Shown: positions 37,353-56,284 of the stretch, piece after piece
How the letters are laid out: each line of letters begins with the position of its first letter
Position numbering within the stretch: position 1 is the first letter of the stretch
Position numbers and translations under genes: made by a program
Assembly: GCF_000214825.1 (NCBI RefSeq)
Contig: NC_015581.1
Coordinates: 434,001 to 498,000, forward strand
DNA: 64,000 nt
Source: Thiomicrospira cyclica ALM1
GTDB lineage: Bacteria; Pseudomonadota; Gammaproteobacteria; Thiomicrospirales; Thiomicrospiraceae
Direction of reading: 5' to 3'
The notes under the pieces: model-generated
The model's input: only the letters and a program-made list of their open reading frames with translations
What the model was told of the DNA's origin: nothing
The model's database searches: none

Positions 37353-37411
37353 ATAGTAAAAAAAATAGATAAAATGTTACACGGAGAATTTAGAACCAAA
37401 TAAGTCGAATT

Positions 37412-37440
37412 TGTGATAATTCGTGATATTTAGTGATAAT
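37412..37440 (+). promoter_or_regulatory. Candidate promoter for the SapC/export operon
   Basis: TTGTGA (37412-37417) and GATAAT (37435-37440) are spaced by 17 bp and would start transcription near 37447, 21 bases before the SapC ATG. The -35 matches consensus at 4 of 6 positions and the -10 at 5 of 6. Both hexamers lie inside the 10-bp repeats, so other registers are possible. Confidence 0.4.
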
Positions 37441-37452
37441 TCGTGACAATTA
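37413..37452 (+). repeat. Four tandem 10-bp repeats upstream of the SapC gene
   Basis: Units start at 37413, 37423, 37433 and 37443: GTGATAATTC, GTGATATTTA, GTGATAATTC, GTGACAATTA. The period is exactly one helical turn, so a protein could bind all copies on one face of the DNA. They fill the space just before the ribosome site of the SapC gene and overlap a candidate promoter. A regulator-binding site is inference. Confidence 0.7.
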
Positions 37453-37467
37453 ACCTTGGAGACACCT

Positions 37468-38214
37468 ATGTTTAAAAAATTAGTACCGGTAAATAAAGAC
37501 GTTCATGCCAGTTTAAAAGTTAAACCCTTAGATGGTTTTGGTTTTTCATCCGGTTTTCATATTGCAACCATTATGGTGCATGAATTTGCCCGCGCGGCCT
37601 CGGTTTATCCGATTGTGTTTCTTGAAGATAAAGAACAGGATGAGTTTCGTCCGGTGGTGCTACTCGGTTTAGATGCTGGCACCAATTTATTTGTCGGCGA
37701 AGATGGTAAGTGGCAAGCATCGTATGTACCGGCAATTATTCGTCGTTATCCGTTTGCCTTAGCGAAAACTGATAAGGACGATCAGTTTACCGTTTGTGTT
37801 GATGAAGAGAGCCCGTATGTCGGTAACAAAGAAGGCCAGGCTTTATTTGATGACAAGGGTGAGCCTACAGAAGTGGTTGAAAATGTTAAGCGTTACCTTA
37901 GCGAATTGCAGCAAATGGAAGTGTTTACCAAACAGTTCTGTCATTTTTTAGCCGAACATAACTTGTTTACGCCATTAAATATGCGTGTTCGTGAAAACGA
38001 CCAGATGAAAAATATTACGGGCTGTTATGTGGTTAATGAAGAGCGCTTAAATAACTTATCGGACAATCTATTCCTTGAAATTAAGTCACGTCGTTATATG
38101 GCGCCTGTGTACTCACACTTAACGTCTTTAGCGCAAATTGAGCGTTTAGCCATGTTGAAAGACGGTGTCAAAGGCTTGACACAGCAGCAAGCTGACACCA
38201 AATCTGTGCATTAA
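37468..38214 (+). CDS. SapC family protein
   Basis: 248 residues. The start is ATG 37468 because GGAG at 37458-37461 sits 6 bases before it; an upstream in-frame TTG at 37456 overlaps that ribosome site and is unlikely. The sequence has the SapC look: N-terminal LVPVNKDVHASLKV, a central FARAASVYPIVF segment, then YVPAIIRRYPFAL. No signal peptide or membrane segment is evident, so it is probably cytosolic. In Campylobacter fetus sapC heads the sapCDEF locus that secretes S-layer proteins, but the biochemical role of the family is not established. Here it lies between a giant surface protein gene and a TolC/adaptor pair, which fits an accessory role in making or exporting surface protein. It is preceded by a 115-bp gap with tandem 10-bp repeats, the only obvious regulatory region in the block. 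Confidence 0.85.
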   Translation: MFKKLVPVNKDVHASLKVKPLDGFGFSSGFHIATIMVHEFARAASVYPIVFLEDKEQDEFRPVVLLGLDAGTNLFVGEDGKWQASYVPAIIRRYPFALAKTDKDDQFTVCVDEESPYVGNKEGQALFDDKGEPTEVVENVKRYLSELQQMEVFTKQFCHFLAEHNLFTPLNMRVRENDQMKNITGCYVVNEERLNNLSDNLFLEIKSRRYMAPVYSHLTSLAQIERLAMLKDGVKGLTQQQADTKSVH

Positions 38215-38285
38215 AAGCACGTTTATTACATCGGTTCTAGTCAATAGCTAGGCCGGTGGTTTGTCATTCCGGAGAGATAGCAACG

Positions 38286-39908
38286 ATGAAACAATTTACC
38301 AAAAAACAATTACCGATCTGGTTAAGTATCTGTCTTGCCGGAGGCGCGGTGGCACCCGGTTTTGCCACAGCGTCCACACCCGATTCCGCCAATGCTTTGA
38401 TATTGGAGCAAGGTGTGATGGCGTTAAACCAACAAACACTGGTTGAACAGCTGATTGCGCGTAATGCACAAGTGCTGTTTAGCCAATTACAAACTGAGCT
38501 GGCACAGCATCAGATTTTGCAAGAAACCGGTGCATTTGAGCCGGTTTTTTTCTCTAATGTGCGCTATGACGATGTTCGCCGTCAAGCCGAGGCCAGTGAT
38601 CGCAGTAGTCCAAGGTTATCACCTGATTTTTCTGTATTTGAAGAACAGCGCAGTCAATATGAAATAGGGGTTAATTCGCGCCTCAGAAGTGGCGCGGACT
38701 TGCGGGTTAGTTATCAAACACTGCATCGAGAAAATAATACCATTGGACAAATAACGAGCAACCCGTCAAATAATGCGGAATGGACCGGTTCTATTAACCT
38801 GGTGATTACCCAACCGTTAATGCGCGGTTTAGGTGCGACACAACAGCAATCGCGTATTGCGCAAGCTGAGTTAGAGCATCAGGTTTTAATTAGCCAATAT
38901 CAGCAACAATTAATGCGTAGTATGTTTGATGGCTTGTCGGCTTATTGGCAACTCTATCGTGTCGAGCAGGTGCAACAGATGCGGGTAGAATCGCTAGAAA
39001 ATGCCCAAAAAACCTATGCGGATTTGGAGCGCCGTGTGCGTGCCGGGCAACTTCCCGAAACCACCTTACTGGAAGCACGCTCCAATATTTTGTCACGACA
39101 AGCAGAGCTTGATGCGAGTTTACACGCTTACCAAGATGCCAAAACTCGCCTAACCACATTGCTCAATATTTCAGCGGCCGAGCAGGATGTTACGATCAAG
39201 TTGCTGGATGAACCGGTTGCTACCGCCCTAGCCTTACAAGGATCGTTTGAAGCCTACTTCGATACCGTGTTAGCCAGTTGGCCCAGTTACGCGGTGGCGT
39301 TAAAACGTGCCGATGTGCAAATGGAACAATTAAAATCGGCGCGCGATGAATTAAAGCCTCAGCTAGACCTGTTAATGGGTTATAGCACCAACGGTTTAGG
39401 TTTCGATTATGGTAAGAGTGCCGAAAAACAGTTTTCAACCGATTTTCCGTCGTGGTTTGCGGGCTTGAGTCTGACCATGCCTTTGCAAGGCAATAAGCGG
39501 GCACGCGGTCAAGAGTTGGCGGCGTTAACGCGTTTGAGTCAGTCAGAAATTGATGCCCAGGCGATTCGCACTGGCTTAGCGAATGATTTACAAAATCGGC
39601 TGATTCAAGTGGAACGTAGCCATGATGAGTTGATGGGTTATCAAGATAACGTTGCGTTGCTTAAGGAATTGTTGCGTATTGAACGAGAGCTTTTCGATGC
39701 CGGTTCGCGCCGTTTAAGTGATGTCTATGATCGTGAAGATCGCCTCAATCGGGGTATGCAGCAGTATATTGATGCCAAGGTAAAATTTGAAATTGCCAAG
39801 CTATCCTTGCAGCTGGCGGAAGGTTCCTTGCTCGGTAACTTTGGGATCAGCGTTGGCGATGGCTCGTCACTGAGTGCCAGCCCTGTGCAACCGGTTGTTC
39901 AGCGGTGA
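38286..39908 (+). CDS. TolC-family outer-membrane efflux protein
   Basis: 540 residues. ATG 38286 is preceded by GGAGAG at 38271-38276; the longer frame from 38256 has no better signal. Residues 1-30 form a signal peptide (Lys-rich start, hydrophobic SICLAGGAVAPGFATAS). After it come a beta-strand region (residues about 60-170) and long alpha-helical, coiled-coil stretches rich in Gln, Arg and Leu, including NAQKTYADLERRVRAGQLPE, the repeated helical-hairpin pattern of TolC family channels. Length is close to family members used in type I secretion and multidrug export. It should form the trimeric outer-membrane duct. The adaptor gene begins 9 bp after its stop, so the two are surely co-transcribed. 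The neighbouring giant proteins, rather than small molecules, are the likely cargo (inference). Confidence 0.9.
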   Translation: MKQFTKKQLPIWLSICLAGGAVAPGFATASTPDSANALILEQGVMALNQQTLVEQLIARNAQVLFSQLQTELAQHQILQETGAFEPVFFSNVRYDDVRRQAEASDRSSPRLSPDFSVFEEQRSQYEIGVNSRLRSGADLRVSYQTLHRENNTIGQITSNPSNNAEWTGSINLVITQPLMRGLGATQQQSRIAQAELEHQVLISQYQQQLMRSMFDGLSAYWQLYRVEQVQQMRVESLENAQKTYADLERRVRAGQLPETTLLEARSNILSRQAELDASLHAYQDAKTRLTTLLNISAAEQDVTIKLLDEPVATALALQGSFEAYFDTVLASWPSYAVALKRADVQMEQLKSARDELKPQLDLLMGYSTNGLGFDYGKSAEKQFSTDFPSWFAGLSLTMPLQGNKRARGQELAALTRLSQSEIDAQAIRTGLANDLQNRLIQVERSHDELMGYQDNVALLKELLRIERELFDAGSRRLSDVYDREDRLNRGMQQYIDAKVKFEIAKLSLQLAEGSLLGNFGISVGDGSSLSASPVQPVVQR

Positions 39909-39917
39909 GTTTCTTTA

Positions 39918-40754
39918 ATGACTAAGGCGTCTTGTATGCGCTCTTGGCTTGGCGCAGGCCTGCTGGCATTGGTGTTGGTAGCAGCACCACTGAAGCAGGT
40001 GTTTGCGTCGGCCTTGACTCAGGTTGGCGTGCTCTATCCGCAAGACGAGTTTTTATTATCCTTTGGGGTGAGTGGCCTGGTGGCTGATGTATTGGTAAAG
40101 CCGGGTCATAAGGTTCGAGCTGGACAGCCGTTAGTGCGGTTGGATACCCAGTTACAGGAGGTTGAGCAGCAGCGCCGTCGCTTGATTGTTGATGATCAAG
40201 TTGAGCAGGATGTGCTGACCCAACGCCTTGCCGTGTTAACCGGTCAGTTACAACGAGCCGAGCAACTGTTTGCGCAATCACGCTCCATTAGTTTAGATGA
40301 CTTGGAGCGTTTGCGTTTAGAGCATATCACCCTAGAAGGTCGCCTGCTTCAGTTGCAAAATGAAAAGCGTTTAGCCCAATTGGAATACCAGGCCGTACAA
40401 CTAGACATTGCATTGCATTCGTTGCGTGCGCCCGCCGACGGCCAAGTTATCGAAGTCCAACCCAGTCGCGGTGAATGGGCGCGTCAAGGTGAGCCGGTAT
40501 TACGCTTAGTTAATATTTCGCAATTGCGTTTAAAACTCAATGTGCCAGATGGATTAGCCAGACGTTTAGTAGCAGAGCAAGCGATTTCAGTGAATATCGA
40601 AGGCCAGCAAACCGTGATGGGGGCGTTGGTGTTTATTTCGCCGGTAGCGGATCCCGCCAGTGGTTTGGTTGAGCTACACATTAACCTTGCTAATCCGGAT
40701 GGCGTGTTGCGTCCCGGCAGCAAGGCCAGTATTAATTTAGAACATCTTCAGTAA
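39918..40754 (+). CDS. HlyD/RND-type periplasmic adaptor
   Basis: 278 residues. It begins with ATG 39918, with GGTGAG (39904-39909) as ribosome site overlapping the tolC-like stop; ATG 39936 is an alternative that leaves a cleaner signal peptide. Residues about 7-30 are a hydrophobic export signal ending near VFASA. Next comes a split biotinyl-lipoyl domain (about 48-75 with VKPGHKVRAGQPLVRLDT, closing near 170 with LRAPADGQVIEVQPSRGEW) around a helical hairpin (about 78-155), then a beta-barrel (about 190-278, RPGSKASINLEHL). This is the standard membrane-fusion protein order that links an inner-membrane pump to TolC. No RND or ABC pump gene lies next to it; the next gene is a giant LEPR-XLL protein. 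It probably bridges the downstream membrane adaptors to the TolC channel (inference). Confidence 0.85.
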   Translation: MTKASCMRSWLGAGLLALVLVAAPLKQVFASALTQVGVLYPQDEFLLSFGVSGLVADVLVKPGHKVRAGQPLVRLDTQLQEVEQQRRRLIVDDQVEQDVLTQRLAVLTGQLQRAEQLFAQSRSISLDDLERLRLEHITLEGRLLQLQNEKRLAQLEYQAVQLDIALHSLRAPADGQVIEVQPSRGEWARQGEPVLRLVNISQLRLKLNVPDGLARRLVAEQAISVNIEGQQTVMGALVFISPVADPASGLVELHINLANPDGVLRPGSKASINLEHLQ

Positions 40755-40803
40755 ACGGGTGCCCAACCCATCTTAACAGTGCTGCGAAGCAGGGAGTTTA
40801 AGG

Positions 40804-43800
40804 GTGAAACGACATAACCAAAAAACCTTAACTAAACAAGCGTTTCAGCTAGAACCGCTTGAACCTCGCTTTTTACTCTCCGCGGATCCCGTAATGGGCG
40901 CTGCGCAGGTGGCATTGTTAACCGAGTTGGATGGCAGTCAGGGTGCGCAAACCGAGCATCATGTTGAATTTGATGTCAACCAAACGCAACAAGAAACACC
41001 GCCGGTTGATGAGGGTGATGGGACGTTCAACCTAACATTAGCGGTTGATGCACCCGCCAGCGAAACAGTAACCTTAACAGATGGGCTGTTAATTTTAGAT
41101 TTTACCCGCACCGAGCAGGGCTTAATTTTTGCGCCGACAGACCTGAATAGTGACATTACGCTTGACCAGGCCTGGTTAGATTTAGCTGCGTCGGAACTGG
41201 ATCAATTAGGCGCCGCGCAAACCTTGCAAATGGGTTATGCCGACGCAGCCTATACCATTCATGTCGGCCAATATGGCTTAAATGAGCCATTAACCTTTGC
41301 CCATAACCTGTTGCTAATGACTCCGGCTGAGGGCGGTCATATCAATTTAAACCAGAATATTTTGTTTGAACCCGGTACCGGGTTGAGCATTATTGGTAGT
41401 GGCAATACGACCACGATCAATACGGATCAAATAGAGAGTGGTGATATCAATAACCAAGTTAATGATTCGATTGAAATCAACGGTAAGCGTGTCTTGCAAT
41501 CGGGAACTGGTAATATTACTCTTGGCACTACAAATACATCTTTCTTTTTGGGTGGAAAAGGAGATGCTGACAAAGAAGATATCCTTACCTTAAATCTGAG
41601 TAATCAGTCCGGTGCTAAAGATGTCGTGATTCATTACCAAATTGGCGCTAATTCTGTTTCCGGCTCCGAGACTGCTCCATTAGATGGCTTGATTATTAAT
41701 CAAGCCGGTAATGTGACCTTTGAGCGTAACGTGAATATTGCCGGTGATTTAATTATTAACGCAAGCGGGGTTGTTAATTTTAAAGGCAGCTTAGTCTTGT
41801 CTGGAAACTTAATCATTCAAGGTGCCGAGCAAGTTATATTTGGAGGTAAGGTAACGCTTGAAGGTTCGCATAACGAACGCTTTGCATTAATTGAAACTAA
41901 TAGGCTTGATTTAGCTGCTGGAACCAATGCTTTTGAAGCTTCGGGTTATGATCTTTTTATTCAAACTACAGATAAAGCAAAAAGTATTGTGGTAGGTAGT
42001 ATCTCTAGCCCCCCGAGTAATAGTTTGCAATTAAGTCAGACAGCTTTAGATAAAATAAACAGCAATTTGGGACGCTTAATCATTGGGCACCAAGACGTAT
42101 TAACTAATCAAGCTATTACCGGTGATCTATTTTTAGGTGGCGTGGATCGTGGGGCGGTTAATTTTAATTTTGCAACCGAGTTTTACGCACAGAATATAAC
42201 CCTGGTAGATGACACGAACGCTAATATTGTTACACGTAGCAGTAAAGACCTGGGCTTGTTTGCGCGTAACAACATCACCATCAATAATGAGCTGGACAAT
42301 TACTTTTCAGATGCAGTTAGTAACGTTTTAACACTTTATTCAGCCGCTGGCGCGATTACGCAGTCAACAACAAATACCGACCCCATTATGGCCAATCGAT
42401 TGAATATTCAGGCTGCAACCGGTATTAATATAACCCATGCGCAAATTAAATCACTCAATCTAGTAAATACAGGGTCTGGAGATGTTTCGATTAACACTCA
42501 GGCGGGTACAAACCCGTTTTACTCAAATATATCCGGTAATCTTGACCTTGCGCGTGCCGCTCAAACTGATCCAAGTAGCTCAGATTCGATTAATATTACT
42601 GCAGAAGCCGGTAATATTATGCTGACGGCTGATCCCGCATTGAATGTTTTTCGTAGTCTAACAACGCTTACCAATAACACCTTTACCTCTGATGTTGCCT
42701 CTGGCCAAAGTGCTGTGGTTAATTATGCAAGTCGTTCTTTGAGTACGACAGTACTGATTGCTGAAGGTAATGATGTAATCCATGCCGGCACAGGTAGTAT
42801 TACCTTAACAGCCAGTGAGGCTATTGTGCAAAATGCCAATATTACTTCAGCGGGGGGATTAGTTACCTTAAATGCTCAGAATGGAAGTATTGCCATGCTG
42901 GCTAGCGTGCTTACTGACGCAAGTGTTGGTAGTGCAACTACAGGTACCGTCGTATTAAACGCTGCTGATCATATTGTGCTGGGCCAAATTAATGCCAAAA
43001 CGGCGATTACGCTGAACGCCAATACGAATAATAATGGTACGGGGTCTATTACTTCGGCAAGCGGGGTAGGCACGGGTTCAAATCGCCCTTTAAACCTCAG
43101 TGGTGAAACCGAAACGGTTACACTGCGTGCCAGCCAAGGGATAGGTACAGATACTGTTCACTTGAAAACTGAAATAGCAGGCCTGCTGGCGCGCAACACC
43201 CTGTCTGGTGGGATATTCATTCAAGAAACCACCGACTTAGAGGTTCAAAAAGGTATTGATGAAACCAATGCAGATTTAGGGGCTTGGTCGTCTGGTACTG
43301 ATGGCAATGCCGTATTCACTCTGCTCAACGGCAGCTTCACTGCAACCGGGCAAATGTTATTGGAGGGTGCTAGCGGGAATTTGTTGGTGGATGCAAAAAC
43401 TACAGATAAACCGGCTAATATCGCTATCAATCAAACAGTGACTACAAACAATGGTTCGGTGAGTTTACTAGCCGCTAATGGCATTTCTATGGCAGCAGCA
43501 GGCCTGGTCGAAACCCTAGCGCTAGAAAAAACCATTGAATTACTCGCCAGCAGCGGCGCGATTGCCATGACCCAAGGCGCGCAACTCAAAACCAATCGCG
43601 GCAATATTCGCTTAGATGCCTCAACGAATGTTGAAATTGGTTTAATTGATGCGCGTTTTGCAGATGATCGTGGACAAACACCAACTCTAGCTAATCAAGA
43701 TGATTCAACGAATTTCTGGGGTTCGGTATTCATTAAAGCGGGTACAAGCATCGAAGATGCTTATGTACCAAATGGCAGTGATGATGGCATCGTTGACATT

Positions 43801-49800: not shown

Positions 49801-50337
49801 AGTGTGATAACGACCAGTGAGCAGGCACTAAAAGTGGCTGTAAACCGTTTTAGTTTTCCAGCTGTGGGTCAAAATAACCTGAATGCGGTGATAGATTCGC
49901 AAGGTCGGGTACACATCCTAAATCTTAGTGGGCGATTGGGTTACGCGATGTTAAACCAGTCTAATAGTGCCTTAGCCTTAGACGTTGCGGCTATTCGAGA
50001 CCTTGCCGATTTTGAGTTTTTCTTAAAACCCGTATTAGAAATTGTGCGTCAAGAAAGTCAAACGACACCTTCAATGTTGCAGCCGCCTATCGCTACGGCG
50101 GTGCCAAGTATGTTTGTTAGCCCAGCACAAATCACGAACCTTGGTAGCCGAATGTTGTTTGAACAGTCGTCCTCTCTTGAACCCCAAAATGACGCTATTT
50201 TTGAGCAGTCGTTGTTAATGAATATTTTGAGCACACCCGCTACCCAAAACATAGTAGCTCCTTCGACGAGCCTAAGCGGATTAGCGCTTCAAGACGAAGA
50301 CGATGAGCTGTTTGAAGCCCAGTTAGCGGTGTTATAA
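40804..50337 (+). CDS. Giant LEPR-XLL repeat protein
   Basis: 3177 residues. The start is GTG 40804, 7 bases after GGGAG at 40792-40796. Residues 19-28 read LEPRFLLSAD, the LEPR-XLL motif known near the N-terminus of very large bacterial proteins; there is no ordinary hydrophobic Sec signal. Residues about 160-620 hold a module homologous to part of the first giant (GSGNTTT, then L-x-x-x-x-L-x-x-G-x-x-I-G strands). Most of the rest is beta-helix-like with a recurring motif of form IG-x4-HL-x-T-x-V-x2-L-x-A-x5-GG-x-Y-x-T-E-A. An 850-bp duplication (44.7 and 47.3 kb) and four 70-residue repeats (48.6-49.5 kb) are recent. The C-terminus is acidic (LQDEDDELFEAQLAVL). I saw a single Cys (about residue 1343), replaced by Arg in the duplicate. 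Likely a surface or secreted filament exported by the flanking genes (inference). Confidence 0.9.
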   Translation: MKRHNQKTLTKQAFQLEPLEPRFLLSADPVMGAAQVALLTELDGSQGAQTEHHVEFDVNQTQQETPPVDEGDGTFNLTLAVDAPASETVTLTDGLLILDFTRTEQGLIFAPTDLNSDITLDQAWLDLAASELDQLGAAQTLQMGYADAAYTIHVGQYGLNEPLTFAHNLLLMTPAEGGHINLNQNILFEPGTGLSIIGSGNTTTINTDQIESGDINNQVNDSIEINGKRVLQSGTGNITLGTTNTSFFLGGKGDADKEDILTLNLSNQSGAKDVVIHYQIGANSVSGSETAPLDGLIINQAGNVTFERNVNIAGDLIINASGVVNFKGSLVLSGNLIIQGAEQVIFGGKVTLEGSHNERFALIETNRLDLAAGTNAFEASGYDLFIQTTDKAKSIVVGSISSPPSNSLQLSQTALDKINSNLGRLIIGHQDVLTNQAITGDLFLGGVDRGAVNFNFATEFYAQNITLVDDTNANIVTRSSKDLGLFARNNITINNELDNYFSDAVSNVLTLYSAAGAITQSTTNTDPIMANRLNIQAATGINITHAQIKSLNLVNTGSGDVSINTQAGTNPFYSNISGNLDLARAAQTDPSSSDSINITAEAGNIMLTADPALNVFRSLTTLTNNTFTSDVASGQSAVVNYASRSLSTTVLIAEGNDVIHAGTGSITLTASEAIVQNANITSAGGLVTLNAQNGSIAMLASVLTDASVGSATTGTVVLNAADHIVLGQINAKTAITLNANTNNNGTGSITSASGVGTGSNRPLNLSGETETVTLRASQGIGTDTVHLKTEIAGLLARNTLSGGIFIQETTDLEVQKGIDETNADLGAWSSGTDGNAVFTLLNGSFTATGQMLLEGASGNLLVDAKTTDKPANIAINQTVTTNNGSVSLLAANGISMAAAGLVETLALEKTIELLASSGAIAMTQGAQLKTNRGNIRLDASTNVEIGLIDARFADDRGQTPTLANQDDSTNFWGSVFIKAGTSIEDAYVPNGSDDGIVDIFAKDLRMQAGTHIGTGANHLETEILNLAAHTTNGGIYITEASVITVNQIADVAINRVATAGTATLATAGTALNGISVGSVGGAANHLVLINKAESMNIEQTVTAAGAGNIRIESESNAGVTISADVESGSGHISVLSGGVLAFGAASIKTSGGDIDLQAQGHIEFGVADARKYDGETLQAQAEWGSVIAVSNNSAILEARPPQTYHNVYANQLRLAANDSIGQHNSHLELKVAKLSAKSLGTVANAGIYLTEATAMTVGQIDAIKRVSLDGTTTDQTTTEWKNLNSAGNLVLQTIDGDLDTLSDTGAITVDGNLFLKAGGNTSDLTLGAILTNTAGHTSLEAGCDILLNANISVTADTKTIDLKAGDDIIMAENTTITSTNGNIRLEAGNSQPDDILDNGNNDIQLRTITAGTANVALIANNNGSIVDAADDSITNIFANGLILKAGTAIGSGTNHIDTSVTTLSASAGSGGVFLTESDGLIVDEVDFDVSRVNSQAVVANQNSTQEDLRTTDNGAIVLNLNTGDLTLNGTANTPGLVAMGSGNVLLNLAAGNLQANAAIDAGIGSISIHSSGSQTYTAAGDITTAGNGTIDLWAKGANSAIQMTAATTFKTNGGNIRLVAGDTNVVGGEITLGTLDARKGTEIQANWGSISLITANDIVAAANSSENIWANQLRIDAKGFGALNQAIQTEVALLAAKIGETGLYINEASTLTIGETAAITVDRVNTQAVNADQTDATLSKIVSAGHISLHTGGTLTLAQNVEATGATTIDLRAGTDSSGHLIMQSNVTVTSQNSDIRIEAGGDIQLRTVTAGTANVALIATAGSITDANNDANANVTANGLLLKAGHGIGAVVNDATNFIDTAVSFLTANAGTGGLFVSEASGLEINTVSVSVNRIHQSSVLTINQEDLRTTDNGAIVLNVFDGNLTLNGGTANTPGLVATGSGNVLLNLGAGNLQANAAIDAGIGSISIHSSGSQTYAATGDITTRETRTIDLQASAITMENGAVTSAESGNIRYVATGAMALGQLTTQGNISLSASTITDNNGAANNLTANQLRIVTTGTADGEGAGTGQDHLEVNVAKLATDIKGTGTGGLYLSEANALEIGTLDAINVNQVGTDGVTLSAITDDAQSNLSSAGNLVLQTLAGSLSMQATGGAITAAGNLLIKAGGNSSDLTLGAILTNTAGHTSLEAGRDILLNADISATADTKTIDLKAVDDIIMATDTSISSNNGNIRLEAGNANTGDSGVNGIALRTITAGTANVALIANNSGSIMDAADDSITNIFANGLILKAGTAIGSGTNHIDISVTTLSASAGSGGVFLTESDGLIVDEVDFNVSRVNSQAGVTNQNSTQEDLRTTDNGAIVLNVAAGNLTLNGGTANTPGLVADGSGNVLLNLGAGNLQANASLDAGTGSISIHSSGSQTYTAAGDITTAGSGTIDLQASEITMTDGAVTSAESGNIRYFATGAMALGQLTTQGNISLSASNITDNNGAANNLTANQLAISTTGTAAGQGAGTATDHLDISVNRLAGSVVGTGNGGLYLTQANALEIGALGTINVNQVGLNDTTLTLTTDAAQVDLTSDSNLIIHTQGNVHFASDISALANASISSGGAITQAANTQVSAVGLLLNATGNIGSSTALLKTDVEQLGISNANNAYIDNAQSVNLGQVTVADTMHLNVAGAITQAANTQLNAAGLVLNTTGDIASSSALLKTSVNQLSITHAASAYIDNAQSVNLGQVTVADTMQLTVAGAITQTANTQLSAAGLVLNATGDIASSSALLKTSVNQLGITHAANAYIDNAKAVNLSNVTATGAVHLTADGAITQTANTQISAAGLLLNATGNIGSSTAFLETNVNQLGITNANNVFIDNNKTVNLSNVSAIGDIRLKVAGNLTNVSNSLTKTLGVLNLDVAGNIGSDTNPLNIAVGQLTAITSGSSTSAFFNQQGNLRVATLNVANLVDLRVQGTVQTSDTAITTNINAQSLRLVATPLPLNAQNFSTSVITTSEQALKVAVNRFSFPAVGQNNLNAVIDSQGRVHILNLSGRLGYAMLNQSNSALALDVAAIRDLADFEFFLKPVLEIVRQESQTTPSMLQPPIATAVPSMFVSPAQITNLGSRMLFEQSSSLEPQNDAIFEQSLLMNILSTPATQNIVAPSTSLSGLALQDEDDELFEAQLAVL
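40858..40887 (+). other. LEPR-XLL motif of the second giant
   Basis: Residues 19-28, LEPRFLLSAD, preceded by a basic stretch (KRHNQK, K11) and LEP at 16-18. It occupies the place where a signal peptide would normally lie. The motif is known at the start of very large bacterial proteins; an export role is inferred from position and neighbours. Confidence 0.85.
41280..42620 (+). repeat. GSGNTTT module, copy in the second giant
   Basis: Homologous counterpart of 29880-31500, located soon after the LEPR-XLL region. The order of conserved blocks is the same, but identity is moderate, so the duplication is old compared with the near-identical arrays elsewhere. Confidence 0.75.
44740..45590 (+). 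repeat. Large duplication in the second giant, copy 1
   Basis: About 850 bp nearly identical to 47290-48130, offset 2550 bp at the left and 2541 bp further right because of a 9-bp in-frame difference. It encodes TNTAGHTSLEAG, TAGTANVALIAN and EDLRTTDNGAIVLN blocks. A third, partial copy of the latter half starts near 46170. Confidence 0.9.
47290..48130 (+). repeat. Large duplication in the second giant, copy 2
   Basis: Near-identical partner of 44740-45590. The stretch 48120-48470 that follows is itself similar to 46790-47130, showing stepwise segmental duplication. The single Cys of copy 1 (LEAGCDILLN) is Arg here. Confidence 0.9.
48631..49470 (+). repeat. Four 210-bp tandem repeats in the second giant
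   Basis: Units of 70 residues start at 48631, 48841, 49051 and 49261, exactly 210 bp apart. Each reads GAITQ-x-ANTQ, then GL-x-LN-x-TG-x-I, then LL-x-T-x-V-x-QLGI, then AYIDNA and VNL-x-x-V. The exact spacing and high identity indicate recent expansion. Confidence 0.95.
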
Positions 50338-50345
50338 GGACATTA

Positions 50346-52178
50346 ATGAGCCATAATCATGTTGATGTTAAAGCCTTAATTGCCGATTTTCGTGATTTAA
50401 GACAGATGACAGCGGATCAGCTTGATCCGTCATTTTGGCAAATTTTTTTATCCCGCGCGCAAGCCTTATGCTTGGCCGATCAGGTGCTGTTGTTAGCGCA
50501 GTCTCATCAGGAGTGGCAGGTTTGGTTAAACGAACACGAGCAGGCTAGCTTGCCGCCAGCGATTACTCCCGAGTTAATTGCGCGTTGTGAAAAAAATGGT
50601 TATGCCGTCAGTGCATCAAATGCCCAGCAAGCACAAGCTCAGCCGCTTTGGGTGTTGGTGAGCTTGGTCACCACGCCACAAAAGCTGTTAGCTTTTTATA
50701 TTCAACCCTCTAATCAGCATCGCTTAAGTGAAATTCTGCTCCGCGCGCAACTGATTGCCGATGTGCCTAGTCTCAAACCCATCACTCGTGGCACAGAACA
50801 GACGGCGCAGGCCGATGCCAATGTCATGTCCATGCTAAAACTGCTTATAGAGGTGTATCAGGCAAAACATTTTGATGCGGCAGTTTACGCGTTGGTCAAC
50901 GGCATCGTTAGTTATGCTAATGAAGTTGAGCAGGTCGTATTGAGTTGGCAAGAAGGCGAGTATAGCCGCGTTAAGGGCCTAAGCCACTTTGATCGGTTTG
51001 AGAAAAAAACCGAAACGATTAAGTTTTTTGAAGCGGCACTAGAAGAAAGCGCCGATCAGCAAATGGCGATTTTATGGCCAGATGCGTCTTCGCCGGCGGC
51101 TATGACCTTGGCACATCGCCAGCTAAAATCCCACTTAGATGCTCAGCAGATTTATAGTTTTCCGCTCTATGATGCGAAGGGCGAGGTTGTTGCTTGTTTA
51201 GGTTTGATTAGTTATCACCAGCCTTTTTCGCCTTTGTTGCTGGAAGCCATTACCTTTGTCACTTCGCTGTTGATTGAGCGCTTGGTGGTGCTAAAGCAAA
51301 AGAAAGATTTTTGGTGGTTGCGGGCAACACGGGTCAGTCGGAAGTTTTTAGCCGTCGCCCTGGGTCGCGATTTTGTATGGACCAAAGTCATTACACTGGT
51401 ATTGCTCAGTTTTATTATTTGGGGCACCTTTTTTCAACTGCCGCATCGGGTATCAGCGGTGTCGCAACTGGTGACAGACAGTTCACAGCTGATTAGTGCG
51501 CCGTTTGATGGTTACTTGGATGAGGTCTATGCTACTTTGGGTGATAACGTCACCGAAGGTCAGGTGTTAACTCGACTGAATACCCAGGAGTTAATGCTGC
51601 AAGCTGCTGAATTACAGGCCGAGTTACAACGGGCGCAGGCTGAAGTCGATCGTGCGCGTGCCAGTTTTAACCTGATTGAACAGGAAATTGCCCAAGCGCG
51701 GATGCGCCAAGTCAGTGCCCGTTTAGAAAGGTTGCAATTTTACTTGGATCAGGCGGCGATTCCGGCACCCTTTGAAAGCATCGTGGTTGAGGGCGAACGC
51801 AAAGACTTAATGGGCTTGCCGGTTAGAAAGGGGCAGGTACTCTATCGGTTAGCACGTATTGAAGGCTTGTATTTGGTGATGCAGGTGGCTCAAGAGGATA
51901 TTGATTATGTCCATTTAGGCTCACGAGGGCAGTTTGCATTTATTAGTCAGCCGAGTGTTCGTTATGATTTTACCGTGACCCAAATTGTGCCCATGGCTAA
52001 AGTCCCAGGGCCACAAGGTGCGGTGTTTGAGGTGAAAGCGGTTTTTGATAGGGAACCCGAATTTTGGTGGCGTCCCGGTATGACTGGTGTGGGCAAAGTC
52101 GATGTAGGCCACGCACGAGCCTTTTGGGTGATGGGGCATAAGTTTTTTAATCGTATTCGTATGTGGTTGTGGTGGTAA
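50346..52178 (+). CDS. GAF-like/HlyD fusion membrane adaptor
   Basis: 610 residues. AAGGA at 50336-50340 overlaps the giant gene's stop and sits 5 bases before ATG 50346. The N-terminal half (about 1-335) is soluble; residues about 170-320 resemble a GAF sensor domain (IYSFPLYDAKGEVVACLGLI). One membrane segment lies at about 345-365 (TLVLLSFIIWGTFF). After it comes a HlyD-type periplasmic part: lipoyl strand FDGYLDEVYATLGDNVTEGQ, an Ala/Gln/Arg coiled coil (about 420-470), lipoyl return and a beta-barrel ending RPGMTGVGKVDVG. The cytosolic sensor joined to a periplasmic adaptor could tell the export apparatus about cargo or a small ligand (inference). The next gene starts 3 bp after the stop. 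No ATPase motif is present, so it is not the motor. Confidence 0.8.
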   Translation: MSHNHVDVKALIADFRDLRQMTADQLDPSFWQIFLSRAQALCLADQVLLLAQSHQEWQVWLNEHEQASLPPAITPELIARCEKNGYAVSASNAQQAQAQPLWVLVSLVTTPQKLLAFYIQPSNQHRLSEILLRAQLIADVPSLKPITRGTEQTAQADANVMSMLKLLIEVYQAKHFDAAVYALVNGIVSYANEVEQVVLSWQEGEYSRVKGLSHFDRFEKKTETIKFFEAALEESADQQMAILWPDASSPAAMTLAHRQLKSHLDAQQIYSFPLYDAKGEVVACLGLISYHQPFSPLLLEAITFVTSLLIERLVVLKQKKDFWWLRATRVSRKFLAVALGRDFVWTKVITLVLLSFIIWGTFFQLPHRVSAVSQLVTDSSQLISAPFDGYLDEVYATLGDNVTEGQVLTRLNTQELMLQAAELQAELQRAQAEVDRARASFNLIEQEIAQARMRQVSARLERLQFYLDQAAIPAPFESIVVEGERKDLMGLPVRKGQVLYRLARIEGLYLVMQVAQEDIDYVHLGSRGQFAFISQPSVRYDFTVTQIVPMAKVPGPQGAVFEVKAVFDREPEFWWRPGMTGVGKVDVGHARAFWVMGHKFFNRIRMWLWW

Positions 52179-52181
52179 GCG

Positions 52182-54326
52182 ATGGCCGCAACCTTTAGTG
52201 AGTCTTGGTATCAAGTAGCGCGATTAAAACTGGCGTTGTTGCCAACCGTCAAGGTTCATAAACAAGTCTATCGGGGCGAGATTTGGTATGTGTTGCAAGA
52301 TAGCTGTTCGGATAAGTTTTTTCGGCTACGTCCGAAAGCTTATGAATTTGCCTGTCAATTATCTACCAAAACCACGGTTGAGCAGGCCTGGTTAAACTTT
52401 GTTGAGCGTTATCCCGAGGATGCCCCCGGTCAGGACGAGGTGATTCAGCTATTGGGTCAATTGCACCACTCAAACTTGTTGTTTTACCGTTCTGAATCCG
52501 ATTACGATCAAATTTTCAAGCGCTTTGAAAAGCAACGCACCAAAGAGCATTTAACCAAGCTGATGGCGCCTTTGTATCTGCGCATTCCTATGTGGAACCC
52601 CAATCCCTTTTTAAATGCCAGCCGTAAATTACTCCTGCCCTTTTTTAGTACCTTTGCTTTTGTAGTCTGGTTAGTGGTTATTCTGTTAGGTGGTAAAGCC
52701 GCAGTAGAAAACTTTGATCAGCTTTGGGTGCAAGGCCAGGGTTTATTGGCGCTGGATAATTTATTGTGGCTTTATGCTTCGATGTTTATTTTGAAAATGT
52801 TTCATGAAATGGGTCATGCCATAGTCTGTAAAAAATACGGTGGCGATGTGCATACGATGGGCATTATGTTTATCGTATTCACCCCTTTGCCCTATATGGA
52901 TGCGAGTGCCAGTTGGGCTATGCGAAACCGTTGGCACCGCGCAATGGTGGGTTCTGCGGGGATGTATGTTGAATTATTTTTTGCGGCGGTTGGAGCGGTT
53001 ATTTGGGCGAACACGGCTGAAGGCACCCTCAATAGTTTGGCGTTCAACATCATGGTGATTGGTTCTATTTCGAGTATTTTGTTTAATGGCAATCCCTTGT
53101 TACGTTTTGATGCCTATTATATTTTGTCAGACATTATTGATATTCCTAACCTGTATCAAAAAGCGAACCAGCAGTGGCAGTTTTATTTTGATAAGTTTAT
53201 GTTGGGAACTTACAAGGCCGAATCACCGGCATTGAGTGGTTCAGAGGGGGTGTGGCTAACCAGCTATGGTTTGTTAAGCTATATCTATCGCTTCTTTATT
53301 ATGTTGGTGATTATGGTTTATGTGACTGGGATTTGGGTTGGCCTGGGCATTATCATGGGGATCATCATGCTGTTTATTTGGCTACTTATTCCACTAAAGA
53401 AACTCTTTACTTATTTGATGACTAGCCCCAAGTTGCAGGCTAATCGACCGAGAGCCTGGTTAACCTCTATGTCAGCCCTAGCTTTATTATTTGGTGCTAT
53501 GGCTACCGTTCCTTTACCCTATTCCATGAAGGCACCCGGAGTGGTGTTGTCGGCTAACGCAGCGATTGTATATTCGGCCAATTCGGGGCAATTAATCGAA
53601 GTCGCAGTTAAATCCGGTGATTGGGTAACGGAAGGGCAGTTGCTCATTAGGATGCGTGATGATGAATTAATCCAAGATATTCGAATTGTCGAGGCACAAC
53701 AGGCTGAAACTGAATGGATGATTCGACAGGCCTTGCAGCGCTCTAGTGGCGATTTGGCGGCCTTACAAACTCGAATGGCCTTTTTAAATCAGCGACTCGA
53801 AGAATTACGCGATCGGGAAGATAAATTGTTGCTTCGCGCACCGCATGATGGGGTTTGGGTAAGTGATAATTTGCATGAGCGCGTGAACTCGATTGTCAGC
53901 CGTGGTGATGCGCTGGGTCAGGTATCACAGCCACATGAGCAACGTTTTATAGTGGTGGTAACCCAGGAGCAGGTGGCGAATTTATTTCGTGAAGAGTTTG
54001 AGTCTGGCACCATTCGCTTTCGATCGCAGGCCTTGGCTGACTTGGCTGTTGATCAATTGCAATTTATTCCCTTTCAACGTCAACTATTACCAAGCCCGGC
54101 ATTGGGCTGGGATGGCGGTGGTCCAATTATGAGTCGTGCCAATGCCGATGGTACGATTCAATCGATTGAACCTTTCTTCGAGGTGCACGTTAGTTTGCCG
54201 CCTGATTTTGTTCAGTTTGAGGGGCAAACAGGGGTCTTAAAAATTGCTTTAAACTGGCAACCGCTCTATTGGCAGGCTAAGCAATTTACTTTGCAGTTGT
54301 TACAACAACGCTTTAAGCAAGGCTAG
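52182..54326 (+). CDS. PqqD-like/M50 metallopeptidase/HlyD membrane protein
   Basis: 714 residues. Residues about 15-105 resemble a PqqD/RiPP-recognition-like domain (VHKQVYRGEIWYVLQDSCSD, then a winged-helix-like stretch). A multi-pass membrane region (about 148-430) carries the M50 site-2-protease motifs: H208-E-M-G-H212 and, as third zinc ligand, D310 in NPLLRFDAYY. Residues about 450-640 form a biotinyl-lipoyl/HlyD-like periplasmic part with a helical hairpin (SANSGQLIEVAVKSGDWVTE, later LRAPHDGVWVSDNLHE). The same layout is often labelled putative peptide zinc metalloprotease and is seen beside secretion genes. The active-site residues are intact. It may recognise cargo through the PqqD-like domain, hold it at the membrane and possibly cleave it (inference). 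It is 3 bp after the GAF/HlyD gene and 2 bp before the SecA-like gene, so the three are translationally linked. Confidence 0.85.
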   Translation: MAATFSESWYQVARLKLALLPTVKVHKQVYRGEIWYVLQDSCSDKFFRLRPKAYEFACQLSTKTTVEQAWLNFVERYPEDAPGQDEVIQLLGQLHHSNLLFYRSESDYDQIFKRFEKQRTKEHLTKLMAPLYLRIPMWNPNPFLNASRKLLLPFFSTFAFVVWLVVILLGGKAAVENFDQLWVQGQGLLALDNLLWLYASMFILKMFHEMGHAIVCKKYGGDVHTMGIMFIVFTPLPYMDASASWAMRNRWHRAMVGSAGMYVELFFAAVGAVIWANTAEGTLNSLAFNIMVIGSISSILFNGNPLLRFDAYYILSDIIDIPNLYQKANQQWQFYFDKFMLGTYKAESPALSGSEGVWLTSYGLLSYIYRFFIMLVIMVYVTGIWVGLGIIMGIIMLFIWLLIPLKKLFTYLMTSPKLQANRPRAWLTSMSALALLFGAMATVPLPYSMKAPGVVLSANAAIVYSANSGQLIEVAVKSGDWVTEGQLLIRMRDDELIQDIRIVEAQQAETEWMIRQALQRSSGDLAALQTRMAFLNQRLEELRDREDKLLLRAPHDGVWVSDNLHERVNSIVSRGDALGQVSQPHEQRFIVVVTQEQVANLFREEFESGTIRFRSQALADLAVDQLQFIPFQRQLLPSPALGWDGGGPIMSRANADGTIQSIEPFFEVHVSLPPDFVQFEGQTGVLKIALNWQPLYWQAKQFTLQLLQQRFKQG

Positions 54327-54328
54327 TT

Positions 54329-56284
54329 ATGCTGCGAGCGGCCAATTATTTTGAACCTCGCCCCATTCCAGACCCGCCTTATTGGGTCGTGTCGAAGACG
54401 GTGGTGCGCTGGCAGCAAATGTTGGGCAAAACCAAGTTGAAAGGTTATTGGCAGGAGATGGCGGTACTGAATCAGTTGGCCAGCGAATTACCGAGTGGCG
54501 AAACCTTGGCGTGGCTTGATGAGGTGAAGCGAACGGTGCAGCGTGGCAAGTTGCAACAAGATCGACAACTCTTGTACAAAGCCTTAATTATGTTGCGCAA
54601 TTTGGCCGATACCGAGTTGGGTATGTGTCCGTACGATGTTCAGCTGTTGTGTGTAATGGCCATGATGGATGGTTATTTGGTGCAACTGGCACCGGGCGAA
54701 GGTAAAACGCTGACTCTGGGCGTGTTGGCTGTCTTGCAGGCCTGGTCGGGCAAACCCTGTCACGTGATAACCGCAAATGATTATTTGGCCAAGCGCGATG
54801 TTGAAACGCTGATGCCTTTATTTCAAGCGGCGGGCATTCAAGCAACCGCTGTCACCCAAGAGATGTCGTCAGATCAGAAACGTGAGAGTTATGGTTGCTC
54901 GATTATTTATTCCACTTCAAAACAGTTATTAGCTGACTTTTTGCATGACAAGCTGCGCTTTGGGGGTATGCCGTCACGGTCGAAGTTGAGCTTAAATCGC
55001 TTAACCGCTACAGAAACCGATTTTTTAATGCCAGGGATATTTGCGGTTATTGTTGATGAAGCCGACAGTATTTTGATTGATGATGCCACCACTCCGTTAA
55101 TTATTTCTGCGCCAGAGCCAAACCTGCTGCTGCGAGAAGCCGTGATGAAGGCCAAGGCATTGCTGGATTTAATGCAACCAGGCCTGCACTACAAGTTAGA
55201 AAAGGAACAATCTGGCGTGCGATTCTATGCGCCGGGTGACGCCTTGTTAGCCGATCATTTGCCAGACTTTCCACGCTTATGGCATTCTAAGAAGCGTCTT
55301 GAGGATTTAATGTTTCAGGCGATTATGGCGCGCGATCATTTTAAATTGGATCAGCATTATGTCATTCAAGACGGCAAGGTCGAAATTGTTGATGAAAGCA
55401 CAGGCCGGGTTATGCCTGGCCGATCATGGAGTTATGGCTTGCATCAATCCGTTGAAGAACGAGCGGGTGTTGAATTAACCGATCCCAGTAAAACCATGGA
55501 AAAGATGAGCTTTCAGAACTTTTTTAAGCTCTATCATCAGATGACCGGCGCCAGTGGTACGTTGCAAAATATTCATGATGAAGTTTATTACAACTACCGA
55601 CGGTTAATTTTAAATGTACCGCCACGAGTGCCTTCAAAGTTAGTGGTGGCGCCTTTTCAATTATTTCATAATCGCGAGCACAAAATTGCTGCGCTGATTG
55701 CACAAGTCAAAGCCCTCCATGCCGAACAAAAACCAATTTTAATTGGCACGCGGCGCATTTCTGATAGTGAGGATTTGGCGGCGCATCTTATCGCGGCAGG
55801 CTTGTATATTAAAATTTTGAATGCCAAGTTTCACGCGCAAGAGGCTGAAATTATTGCCCAAGCGGGTGAACTGGGGCGCATTACTTTAGCTACTAATATG
55901 GCAGGTCGTGGAACCGATATCAAATTGGTGCCCGCCGCGCTGACTTTAGGAGGTTTACAGGTGATTATGTTTGAACCGCATGAATCAGCTAGGATTGATT
56001 GGCAGTTGTTTGGTCGAGCAGGTCGGCAAGGTCAGCCTGGTTATGCCTATCCATTAGTGGCGTTGGATGATGAGATTCTCGTCAAAAATTTGTTTCGTTT
56101 TGAGCGTTTGGTGATGCAAACGATTCGCTGGATGCCAGCCAAACCGGGGCAGTGGTTATTGAATTATTATGTGGAGTTAGCTCAACAGCGTGCGCAAAAT
56201 AAGGCCTTTGCGAAGAGACGACGGATTAATAAATCCACGCGTGAAGCCAAAGAACGCTTAAGTTTTATAAAGGGAACGAGTTAA
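54329..56284 (+). CDS. SecA-like ATPase, shortened
   Basis: 651 residues against about 900 for housekeeping SecA. ATG 54329 lies 2 bases after the previous stop. All SecA motor motifs are visible: Walker A APGEGKT (121-127), TANDYLAKRD, Walker B VDEADSILIDD (D243, E244), a preprotein-binding-like stretch (about 260-345), IVDESTGRVMPGRSWSYGLH, MTGASGT, NMAGRGTDIKL (from 523) and the arginine-finger segment GRAGRQGQPG (from 562). The protein ends soon after the second helicase domain in a basic tail (KAFAKRRRINKSTREAKERL), so the helical scaffold/wing and zinc-binding C-terminal parts are missing. It is therefore a paralogue, not the essential secA. In this operon it is the only energy-coupling enzyme and probably drives export of the giants (inference). 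A terminator follows directly. Confidence 0.88.
   Translation: MLRAANYFEPRPIPDPPYWVVSKTVVRWQQMLGKTKLKGYWQEMAVLNQLASELPSGETLAWLDEVKRTVQRGKLQQDRQLLYKALIMLRNLADTELGMCPYDVQLLCVMAMMDGYLVQLAPGEGKTLTLGVLAVLQAWSGKPCHVITANDYLAKRDVETLMPLFQAAGIQATAVTQEMSSDQKRESYGCSIIYSTSKQLLADFLHDKLRFGGMPSRSKLSLNRLTATETDFLMPGIFAVIVDEADSILIDDATTPLIISAPEPNLLLREAVMKAKALLDLMQPGLHYKLEKEQSGVRFYAPGDALLADHLPDFPRLWHSKKRLEDLMFQAIMARDHFKLDQHYVIQDGKVEIVDESTGRVMPGRSWSYGLHQSVEERAGVELTDPSKTMEKMSFQNFFKLYHQMTGASGTLQNIHDEVYYNYRRLILNVPPRVPSKLVVAPFQLFHNREHKIAALIAQVKALHAEQKPILIGTRRISDSEDLAAHLIAAGLYIKILNAKFHAQEAEIIAQAGELGRITLATNMAGRGTDIKLVPAALTLGGLQVIMFEPHESARIDWQLFGRAGRQGQPGYAYPLVALDDEILVKNLFRFERLVMQTIRWMPAKPGQWLLNYYVELAQQRAQNKAFAKRRRINKSTREAKERLSFIKGTS

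Follow-up and report, generated by a model that had tools for sequence, protein, structure and literature searches.

How could a bacterium move proteins of several thousand residues out of the cell through a locus in which no ATP-binding cassette (ABC) exporter is seen? This question is raised by a gene group in the window, i.e., the whole 64,000-nucleotide stretch of Thiomicrospira cyclica ALM1 DNA analysed here (G000:C1:434001-498000; the source genome is a single contig of 1.93 Mb). Seven genes, all on the plus strand, span 37456-56284 in the list of open reading frames (ORFs) and encode, in this order, a SapC family protein, a TolC-like outer-membrane duct, a periplasmic adaptor, a giant protein carrying the LEPR-XLL motif (giant B), a GAF-HlyD adaptor, an M50-HlyD protein, and a short SecA-like ATPase. 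The gaps ahead of the last three genes were 8, 3, and 2 bp, and a further LEPR-XLL giant (giant A) ends just upstream. Strand, order, spacing, and the upstream giant are as the first-pass annotation, made from the DNA letters alone, had described them; it had further taken the parts to be one dedicated export machine. The cassette is read here as a dedicated type-I-like exporter for giants that start with LEPR-XLL or, more widely, LExR, and the probability of this reading is placed at roughly 0.58. The cassette probably exports the giants because a conserved gene set both adjoins and co-occurs with giants bearing this N-terminal tag.

The co-occurrence was evaluated in a class sample of 274 genomes and a phylum sample of 299 genomes, some of them common to both. 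Protein searches scored the best three to four candidates per genome, and core M50-HlyD proteins were defined by lines of our own, namely E below 1e-70 in the class sample (21 genomes) and at least 470 bits in the phylum sample (37 genomes). Core M50-HlyD was found in 15 of the 18 LEPR-XLL genomes of the class sample vs 6 of the 256 others (Fisher 2e-17), and counting by family gave 12 of 14 LEPR-XLL families vs 6 of 157 others. The phylum sample gave 30/39 vs 7/260 and, when the limit was relaxed to any M50-HlyD with an E of 1e-60 or lower, 38 of the 39 LEPR genomes vs 46 of the 260 others. Counted the other way, LEPR-XLL was present in 15/21 (class) and 30/37 (phylum) core-cassette genomes. 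One class genome, G177 (locus L081), is a borderline core member with neither GAF-HlyD nor SecA adjoining, which may belong to a second M50-HlyD branch; the class figures without it are 14/18, with 20 core genomes. A loose search of the LEPR-negative core genomes brought G179 and G094 over the 17-bit cut-off (E 0.004 and 0.015) and gave sub-cut-off matches directly behind the cassette in G258 and G264, where LExR starts could be read. Because 7 of 14 control genomes also match at that threshold, one of them over the cut-off, these loose matches were kept out of the counts. The class-sample searches found neither LEPR-XLL nor M50-HlyD in G053 and G192, two relatives from the family of the window.

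Within the core genomes, 22 of 40 LEPR frames were located on the same contig as core M50-HlyD, and 19 of these 22 giants lay within 12 kb of it by frame length; giant A of the window lies at 14.8 kb and the other two are far off. For the class sample, the 21 strongest M50-HlyD matches outside the window were considered; one is a fragment in G094, and around the other 20 up to 20 kb of sequence was read, overlapping neighbour genes being placed by tblastn. A giant or LExR start on the same strand and within ~10 kb could be observed in 12 of the 21 class loci (these 20 plus the window). The first-pass annotation had named such co-occurrence across genomes as a check of its reading, and it was found; homologues lying mostly apart from giants were not what the samples revealed.

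The order GAF-HlyD, M50-HlyD, short SecA on one strand was kept in relatives at ~30% identity, with frequent 4-bp overlaps between neighbouring genes. GAF-HlyD was directly upstream of M50-HlyD in 18 of the 20 class loci (in one, L078, split into two frames); the other two are L069, where the contig ends, and L081, where the gene is absent. The short SecA gene followed M50-HlyD in 15 of the 20, with a gap of at most 221 bp. When the window is included, 16 of the 17 short SecAs of the class sample lay directly behind M50-HlyD, the 17th (G081) being on another contig, and 33 of the 36 in the phylum sample lay within 400 bp behind core M50-HlyD; of the remaining three, one was separated by 1 kb, one lay on a different contig, and one at a contig edge. 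A short SecA was detected in 16/21 core genomes vs 0/253 others (class) and in 28/37 vs 1/262 (phylum); the phylum count of 29 genomes is a lower bound because the list, which reaches 3.8e-215, ends at its threshold of 1e-210. When pairwise distances were compared among the three proteins in 16 cassettes, they correlated at r 0.90-0.93, a figure to which shared genome ancestry contributes and which none of 5000 Mantel permutations reached. A scan of genome contigs with short peptide patterns returned two loci and gave little information on distribution.

The same order was present on plasmids. A plasmid protein search for M50-HlyD listed 63 records, and seven alphaproteobacterial stretches were read, all of which had GAF-HlyD, M50-HlyD, and short SecA in order on one strand (in two, with SapC between M50-HlyD and SecA). 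Four of the seven showed an annotated 24-39 kb gene immediately upstream or separated by one small gene. Its product is a LEPR-XLL protein in Pseudosulfitobacter sp. DSM 107133 and in Pontibrevibacter; in Methylosinus it is a LamG-like protein and in Alisedimentitalea a calcium-binding protein. No large upstream gene was seen in the other three, of which one is unannotated there and two begin at the record start. The GAF-HlyD, M50-HlyD, and short SecA genes are a real unit. Among the matches listed, 17 Escherichia and 8 Citrobacter plasmid records also matched M50-HlyD, ranking below the top ones.

Both giants of the window were over the cut-off of the LEPR-8K model (NF012209). Giant A starts 4.1 kb outside the window, at G000:C1:429854, and its open frame of 13,848 codons takes up ~2% of the genome. 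Its N-terminal LEPR-XLL motif reads VEPLEQRILLSADP (LEPR-8K 34.9 bits, cut-off 17), and the motif near the N terminus of giant B reads LEPLEPRFLLSADP. Reading of 26 giant N termini by eye revealed a basic look followed by LExR-hhh-SAD or a variant, with neither a long hydrophobic signal stretch nor a typical Sec signal. The unbroken frames of the giants ranged from about 3,000 to 19,000 codons. A DUF5649 (Pfam) domain is near the 3' end of giant A, and near that end, at 33747-36191, related 300-nt direct repeats with 61-88% identity and a spacing of mostly 297-366 nt could be observed. The C-terminal tails of giants A and B are acidic and resemble each other (37329-37352, DEDELML, and 50293-50337, DEDDELFEAQLAVL), a likeness that by eye did not extend to other giants; across the giants, the C termini read by eye had no common motif. 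The part of a Vibrio genome paper used here mentions a protein of ~8,000 residues with LEPR-XLL. An export route or use of the motif could not be found in the literature searched, which excluded preprints, and later work may exist.

In the SecA chain 3jv2_A of B. subtilis (783 residues), the match to the short SecA family profile covers residues 16-609. As the profile stops at residue 609, the short SecA is without the C-terminal part, where presumably the wing and two-helix finger lie. The Walker A GxGK, DEAD, and GRGTDI motifs and R563/R566, the arginine-finger positions, were invariant in 17 short-SecA rows. A canonical SecA of 922 codons is encoded elsewhere in the source genome. Scored against the family profile, the short SecAs of the class sample received 823-958 bits and the next best protein, a canonical SecA, 623. 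In a SecA tree built by a quick method, 14 canonical rows formed one clade at 100, apart from the short SecAs, the clade covering canonical rows only; the rows canon_G172 and canon_G213, which seem wrongly cut out (7.6-long branch), were ignored, and the very long row short_G060 stayed unplaced. Public names of the short SecA vary among prepilin peptidase, DEAD/DEAH helicase, SecA, and hypothetical protein; the copy named prepilin peptidase matched SecA_DEAD at 8.5e-99 and was 38% identical to the window SecA over 571 aligned positions.

A search of the source genome found one SecY and no second, which does not fit a SecA2-SecY2 system. With this one SecY, the giants could instead travel in two steps: the short SecA would work with ordinary SecYEG to bring them into the periplasm, where M50-HlyD would trim or hold them, and the adaptors and TolC would finish the outer-membrane step. 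Such a route is consistent with the ATPase and preprotein-binding domains that the short SecA keeps, and in Gram-positive bacteria the SecA2-only systems work through the canonical Sec translocase, as stated in the parts of Kamneva, Poudel and Ward 2015 (PMC4452313) drawn on here. It is nevertheless judged unlikely, as the giants are without a typical Sec signal by eye. The short SecA also ends near residue 609/783 of 3jv2_A, before the presumed place of the wing and the two-helix finger. Moreover, TolC conduits are not known to take up large unfolded proteins from the periplasm, which counts against two steps as well.

In the M50-HlyD protein, H208, E209, H212, N304, P305, and D310 were invariant in 23 alignment rows, and among 13 further copies outside the alignment HExxH was kept in 13/13 and the exact NxNP..D pattern in 8/13. 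Judged by their motifs, the protease and ATPase parts of the cassette look active. The window copy scored 25.7 bits against the Pfam M50 model PF02163, under its gathering threshold of 27.2, and 22/23 members matched this model at E up to 0.01. The N domain of the predicted model consists of strands and then three helices; the PqqD fold is built of strands followed by three helices, and a weak PqqD hint was given by 3g2b (E 0.002). The HlyD part of the model matched MacA (Z 14.4, root-mean-square deviation (rmsd) 7.8, 219 aligned); the fold search was filled by HlyD-part matches, and its result covers that part.

The best NCBIfam match of the M50 part was the daptide metalloprotease NF041824 with 162.9 bits. 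This match would suit a cassette that exports or matures something else, e.g., a small modified, daptide-like peptide, with the giants nearby through a shared surface-related function. The score is, however, far under the cut-off of 300, on which a daptide-type peptide system was rejected. The gaps of 2-8 bp among the cassette genes and giant B in the window leave no space for a precursor gene. With the LEPR association being strong and broad, a different cargo appears highly improbable.

The GAF-HlyD protein was represented by an AlphaFold2 (AF2) model with a predicted local distance difference test (pLDDT) score of 84. Residues 153-321 of the model matched GAF domains (Z 16.9, rmsd 2.6, 145 aligned), and residues 365-595 matched MacA (Z 17.4, rmsd 3.8, 222 aligned). 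The window copy has no Pfam GAF match, and 16/19 family members match PF01590 at E up to 0.01. One likely transmembrane helix was seen near 344-366 (hydrophobic peak 348-366), and the GAF and HlyD/MacA-like parts would lie on two sides of the membrane. The domain names of the first-pass annotation could be retained in part: GAF agrees with the fold and M50 with the motifs, but in the window copies M50 and PqqD stay below Pfam gathering and GAF is without a Pfam match. A small DUF3467 gene (~100 aa) was observed just before GAF-HlyD in six loci, behind the giant where one was seen, and tblastn gave no match to it in the window; its product is possibly a cargo chaperone.

For the dedicated exporter, the following course can be pictured. 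The cytoplasmic domains of M50-HlyD (PqqD-like) and GAF-HlyD would grip the giant, still unfolded, at its N-terminal LExR segment. Docked on M50-HlyD/GAF-HlyD in place of a full SecY-binding interface, the short SecA would feed the chain by ATP hydrolysis, and within the membrane the M50 core would cut this segment or release it. The chain would then cross the periplasm and outer membrane by way of the three HlyD-type adaptors and TolC, giants A and B being the putative cargo in the window. This detailed version, i.e., a SecA motor without SecY-binding parts, a one-step M50-HlyD/GAF-HlyD/TolC conduit working with neither ABC exporter nor SecYEG, and an LExR tag read by the PqqD-like domain and cut by M50, is offered tentatively.

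Scanning of the locus proteins with Pfam and NCBIfam revealed no ABC exporter. The whole genome was searched with the LssB model, which gave 36 matches and nothing over the LssB cut-off. Two of them span membrane and ATPase parts. When this pair was run against the full NCBIfam set, the first fitted MsbA (657 bits, cut-off 602) and the other proved MsbA-like; neither reached the cut-off of HlyB or LssB, and PrtD was listed for the first only, below its cut-off. On these scans, in which none was over cut-off, the idea that the genome encodes a conventional type I exporter outside the locus was rejected.

Several points weigh against the exporter reading. No LExR giant was near the cassette in 9 of the 21 class loci: in L069, L074, L076, and L079 the contigs are short or broken, in L062 the long frame near the cassette has no LExR start, and in L063, L071, L073, and L081 none was seen. 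LEPR-XLL without a clear M50-HlyD occurred in G076 and G213 (class) and G472 (phylum), and closeness of the giants to the cassette does not prove a cargo role. The window copy of M50-HlyD scored 14.3 bits against PqqD PF05402, under the gathering threshold of 23.4, and this model was matched by 9/23 members (E up to 0.01). Three core copies seem to be without the PqqD-like domain because their alignment begins only at profile position 117-118. M50-HlyD shows six hydrophobic segments, which may not suffice for a protein-wide pore. No short SecA over thresholds was found in 5/21 (class) and 9/37 (phylum) core genomes, two of the five, G052 and G094, having contigs that end inside M50-HlyD. Finally, in the second M50-HlyD branch a SecA-like gene was seen in 1 of 14 loci read, some of which are short contigs.

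That one gene (L085:7105-8814) encodes a very divergent SecA-like protein of about 570 aa and adjoins the second-branch M50-HlyD. Second-branch loci without a recognised SecA include L082, L084, L086, L088, L090, L091, and L095, several of them beside giants with LExR variants. Long frames of this branch start with LEERVVLDA (L088), LEPRMMFDG (L091), and LENRIVLDA (L095), and the G224 giant next to the L082 M50-HlyD starts with LEPRLLFDG. OEP proteins were located beside M50-HlyD in L082, L084, L086, and L091. Given the core genomes without SecA and the 1/14 in the second branch, the short SecA is unlikely to be the motor in all giant-linked loci; it looks as if LExR giants are constantly partnered by M50-HlyD, with the short SecA serving as a motor in particular lineages.

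The translocator itself might then be M50-HlyD with GAF-HlyD, powered by proton motive force or canonical SecA, and the short SecA an assembly or release factor added in some lineages. The phylum sample points this way, as a short SecA over threshold was present in 26 of the 39 LEPR genomes and M50-HlyD in all but one, and so do the second-branch loci, with their scarcity of SecA-like genes and the OEP proteins beside M50-HlyD. However, where the short SecA is present it is tightly co-inherited and its ATPase motifs are intact, and a different ATPase, encoded at some other place in the genome, may serve the second-branch loci, so that this arrangement is regarded as improbable. The first-pass view of the parts as one machine holds for a conserved cassette that tracks giants; SapC proved to be optional and SecA not universal.

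Coordinates of the window genes and of the further copies mentioned in the text (window positions unless a genome or locus handle is given)
Feature	Position	Strand	Evidence or remark
Giant A, C-terminal 12.4 kaa in window	1..37352	+	ORF 39-37352 open from window edge
SapC family protein, accessory	37456..38214	+	PF07277 4.8e-73
TolC-like outer-membrane duct	38256..39908	+	PF02321 OEP 2.3e-29
Periplasmic adaptor, RND_mfp/HlyD type	39918..40754	+	TIGR01730 110.4 bits (cut-off 94.9), 8.2e-32
Giant B, 3177 aa, proposed cargo	40804..50337	+	NF012209 LEPR-8K 35.7 bits, cut-off 17
GAF-HlyD adaptor	50346..52178	+	HlyD_D23 4.1e-13
M50-HlyD protein	52182..54326	+	NF041824 1.2e-47, under cut-off; motifs HEMGH, NGNPLLRFD
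Short SecA-like ATPase, 651 aa	54329..56284	+	SecA_DEAD 6.4e-68
M50-HlyD copies aligning from 117-118	G426:C30:4495-6297, G325:C30:59574-61376, G300:C32:11062-12861
Variously named short SecAs	L121:18059-20083, L120:17219-19135, L126:20124-22109, L125:20123-22081, L123:12031-14037
DUF3467 gene	L065:12874-13176, L067:6578-6892, L077:6561-6872, L120:12741-13061, L123:7641-7985, L126:15848-16129

SapC was present in 5/21 core genomes vs 4/40 hand-picked other genomes and was rejected as a core part on these counts. Another SapC-family gene of the same genome (G000:C1:288324-289001) is far from the cassette. Judged from their translations, the genes downstream of the cassette are a catalase-peroxidase-like gene on the opposite strand and an aminopeptidase-like gene.

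The proposed exporter can be compared with several known systems. Type I secretion (HlyB-HlyD-TolC, LapBCE) likewise combines HlyD-type adaptors, a TolC-type duct, and large repetitive surface cargo, whereas in the window locus no ABC exporter was seen and the candidate signal is N-terminal. Peptidase-containing ABC transporters (PCATs) have a peptidase of the C39 type; by analogy, its counterpart in the window would be the zinc M50 membrane protease, and that of the ABC protein would be SecA. Common to both, again by analogy, is a leader-handling protease joined to an exporter (for PCATs, the part of PMC8277102 used here). In Gram-positive accessory SecA2 systems, too, the canonical SecA is accompanied by a divergent second one; here, in contrast, there is no SecY2, the SecA C terminus is truncated, and the partners are HlyD/M50 proteins.

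The first-pass annotation knew of no characterised system of this composition; none was found, but the locus type itself had already been described. In the parts of PMC4452313 available to us, Kamneva, Poudel and Ward reported a secondary SecA_DEAD/type-I-related locus, for which SecA was proposed as the ATPase (a SecA-for-ABC idea) and M50 as a possible pore. The wing-scaffold domain is described there as completely or partially lost from the secondary SecA, and the broader biological role of the locus is called completely unknown; Methylobacterium extorquens AM1 is among the carriers of the operon. According to these parts, that locus consists of a SecA_DEAD protein without the wing-scaffold domain, an M50 protein with HlyD domains, a GAF protein with HlyD and biotin_lipoyl domains, and an HlyD adaptor, sometimes with OEP and with no ABC transporter. 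The window locus shares the SecA without wing-scaffold, the M50-HlyD, and the GAF-HlyD (the GAF of the window by fold), and a canonical SecA is kept as well. By its legend, Fig. 3 in PMC4452313 uses interrupted lines for proteins over 1,000 aa, and long neighbours may therefore appear in that figure; giant, LEPR, and PqqD have 0 occurrences in the main text, and no cargo is named in the parts drawn on here. New beyond that text are the LEPR-XLL link, the widened LExR signal, the DUF3467 gene, and the catalytic conservation, and it is the present analysis that adds giants as the likely cargo and LExR as the candidate signal. The co-occurrence gives the Kamneva-type locus a likely cargo and the LEPR-XLL motif a likely machine, and, if true, this would be an ABC-free secretion route for proteins with frames of about 3,000-19,000 codons.

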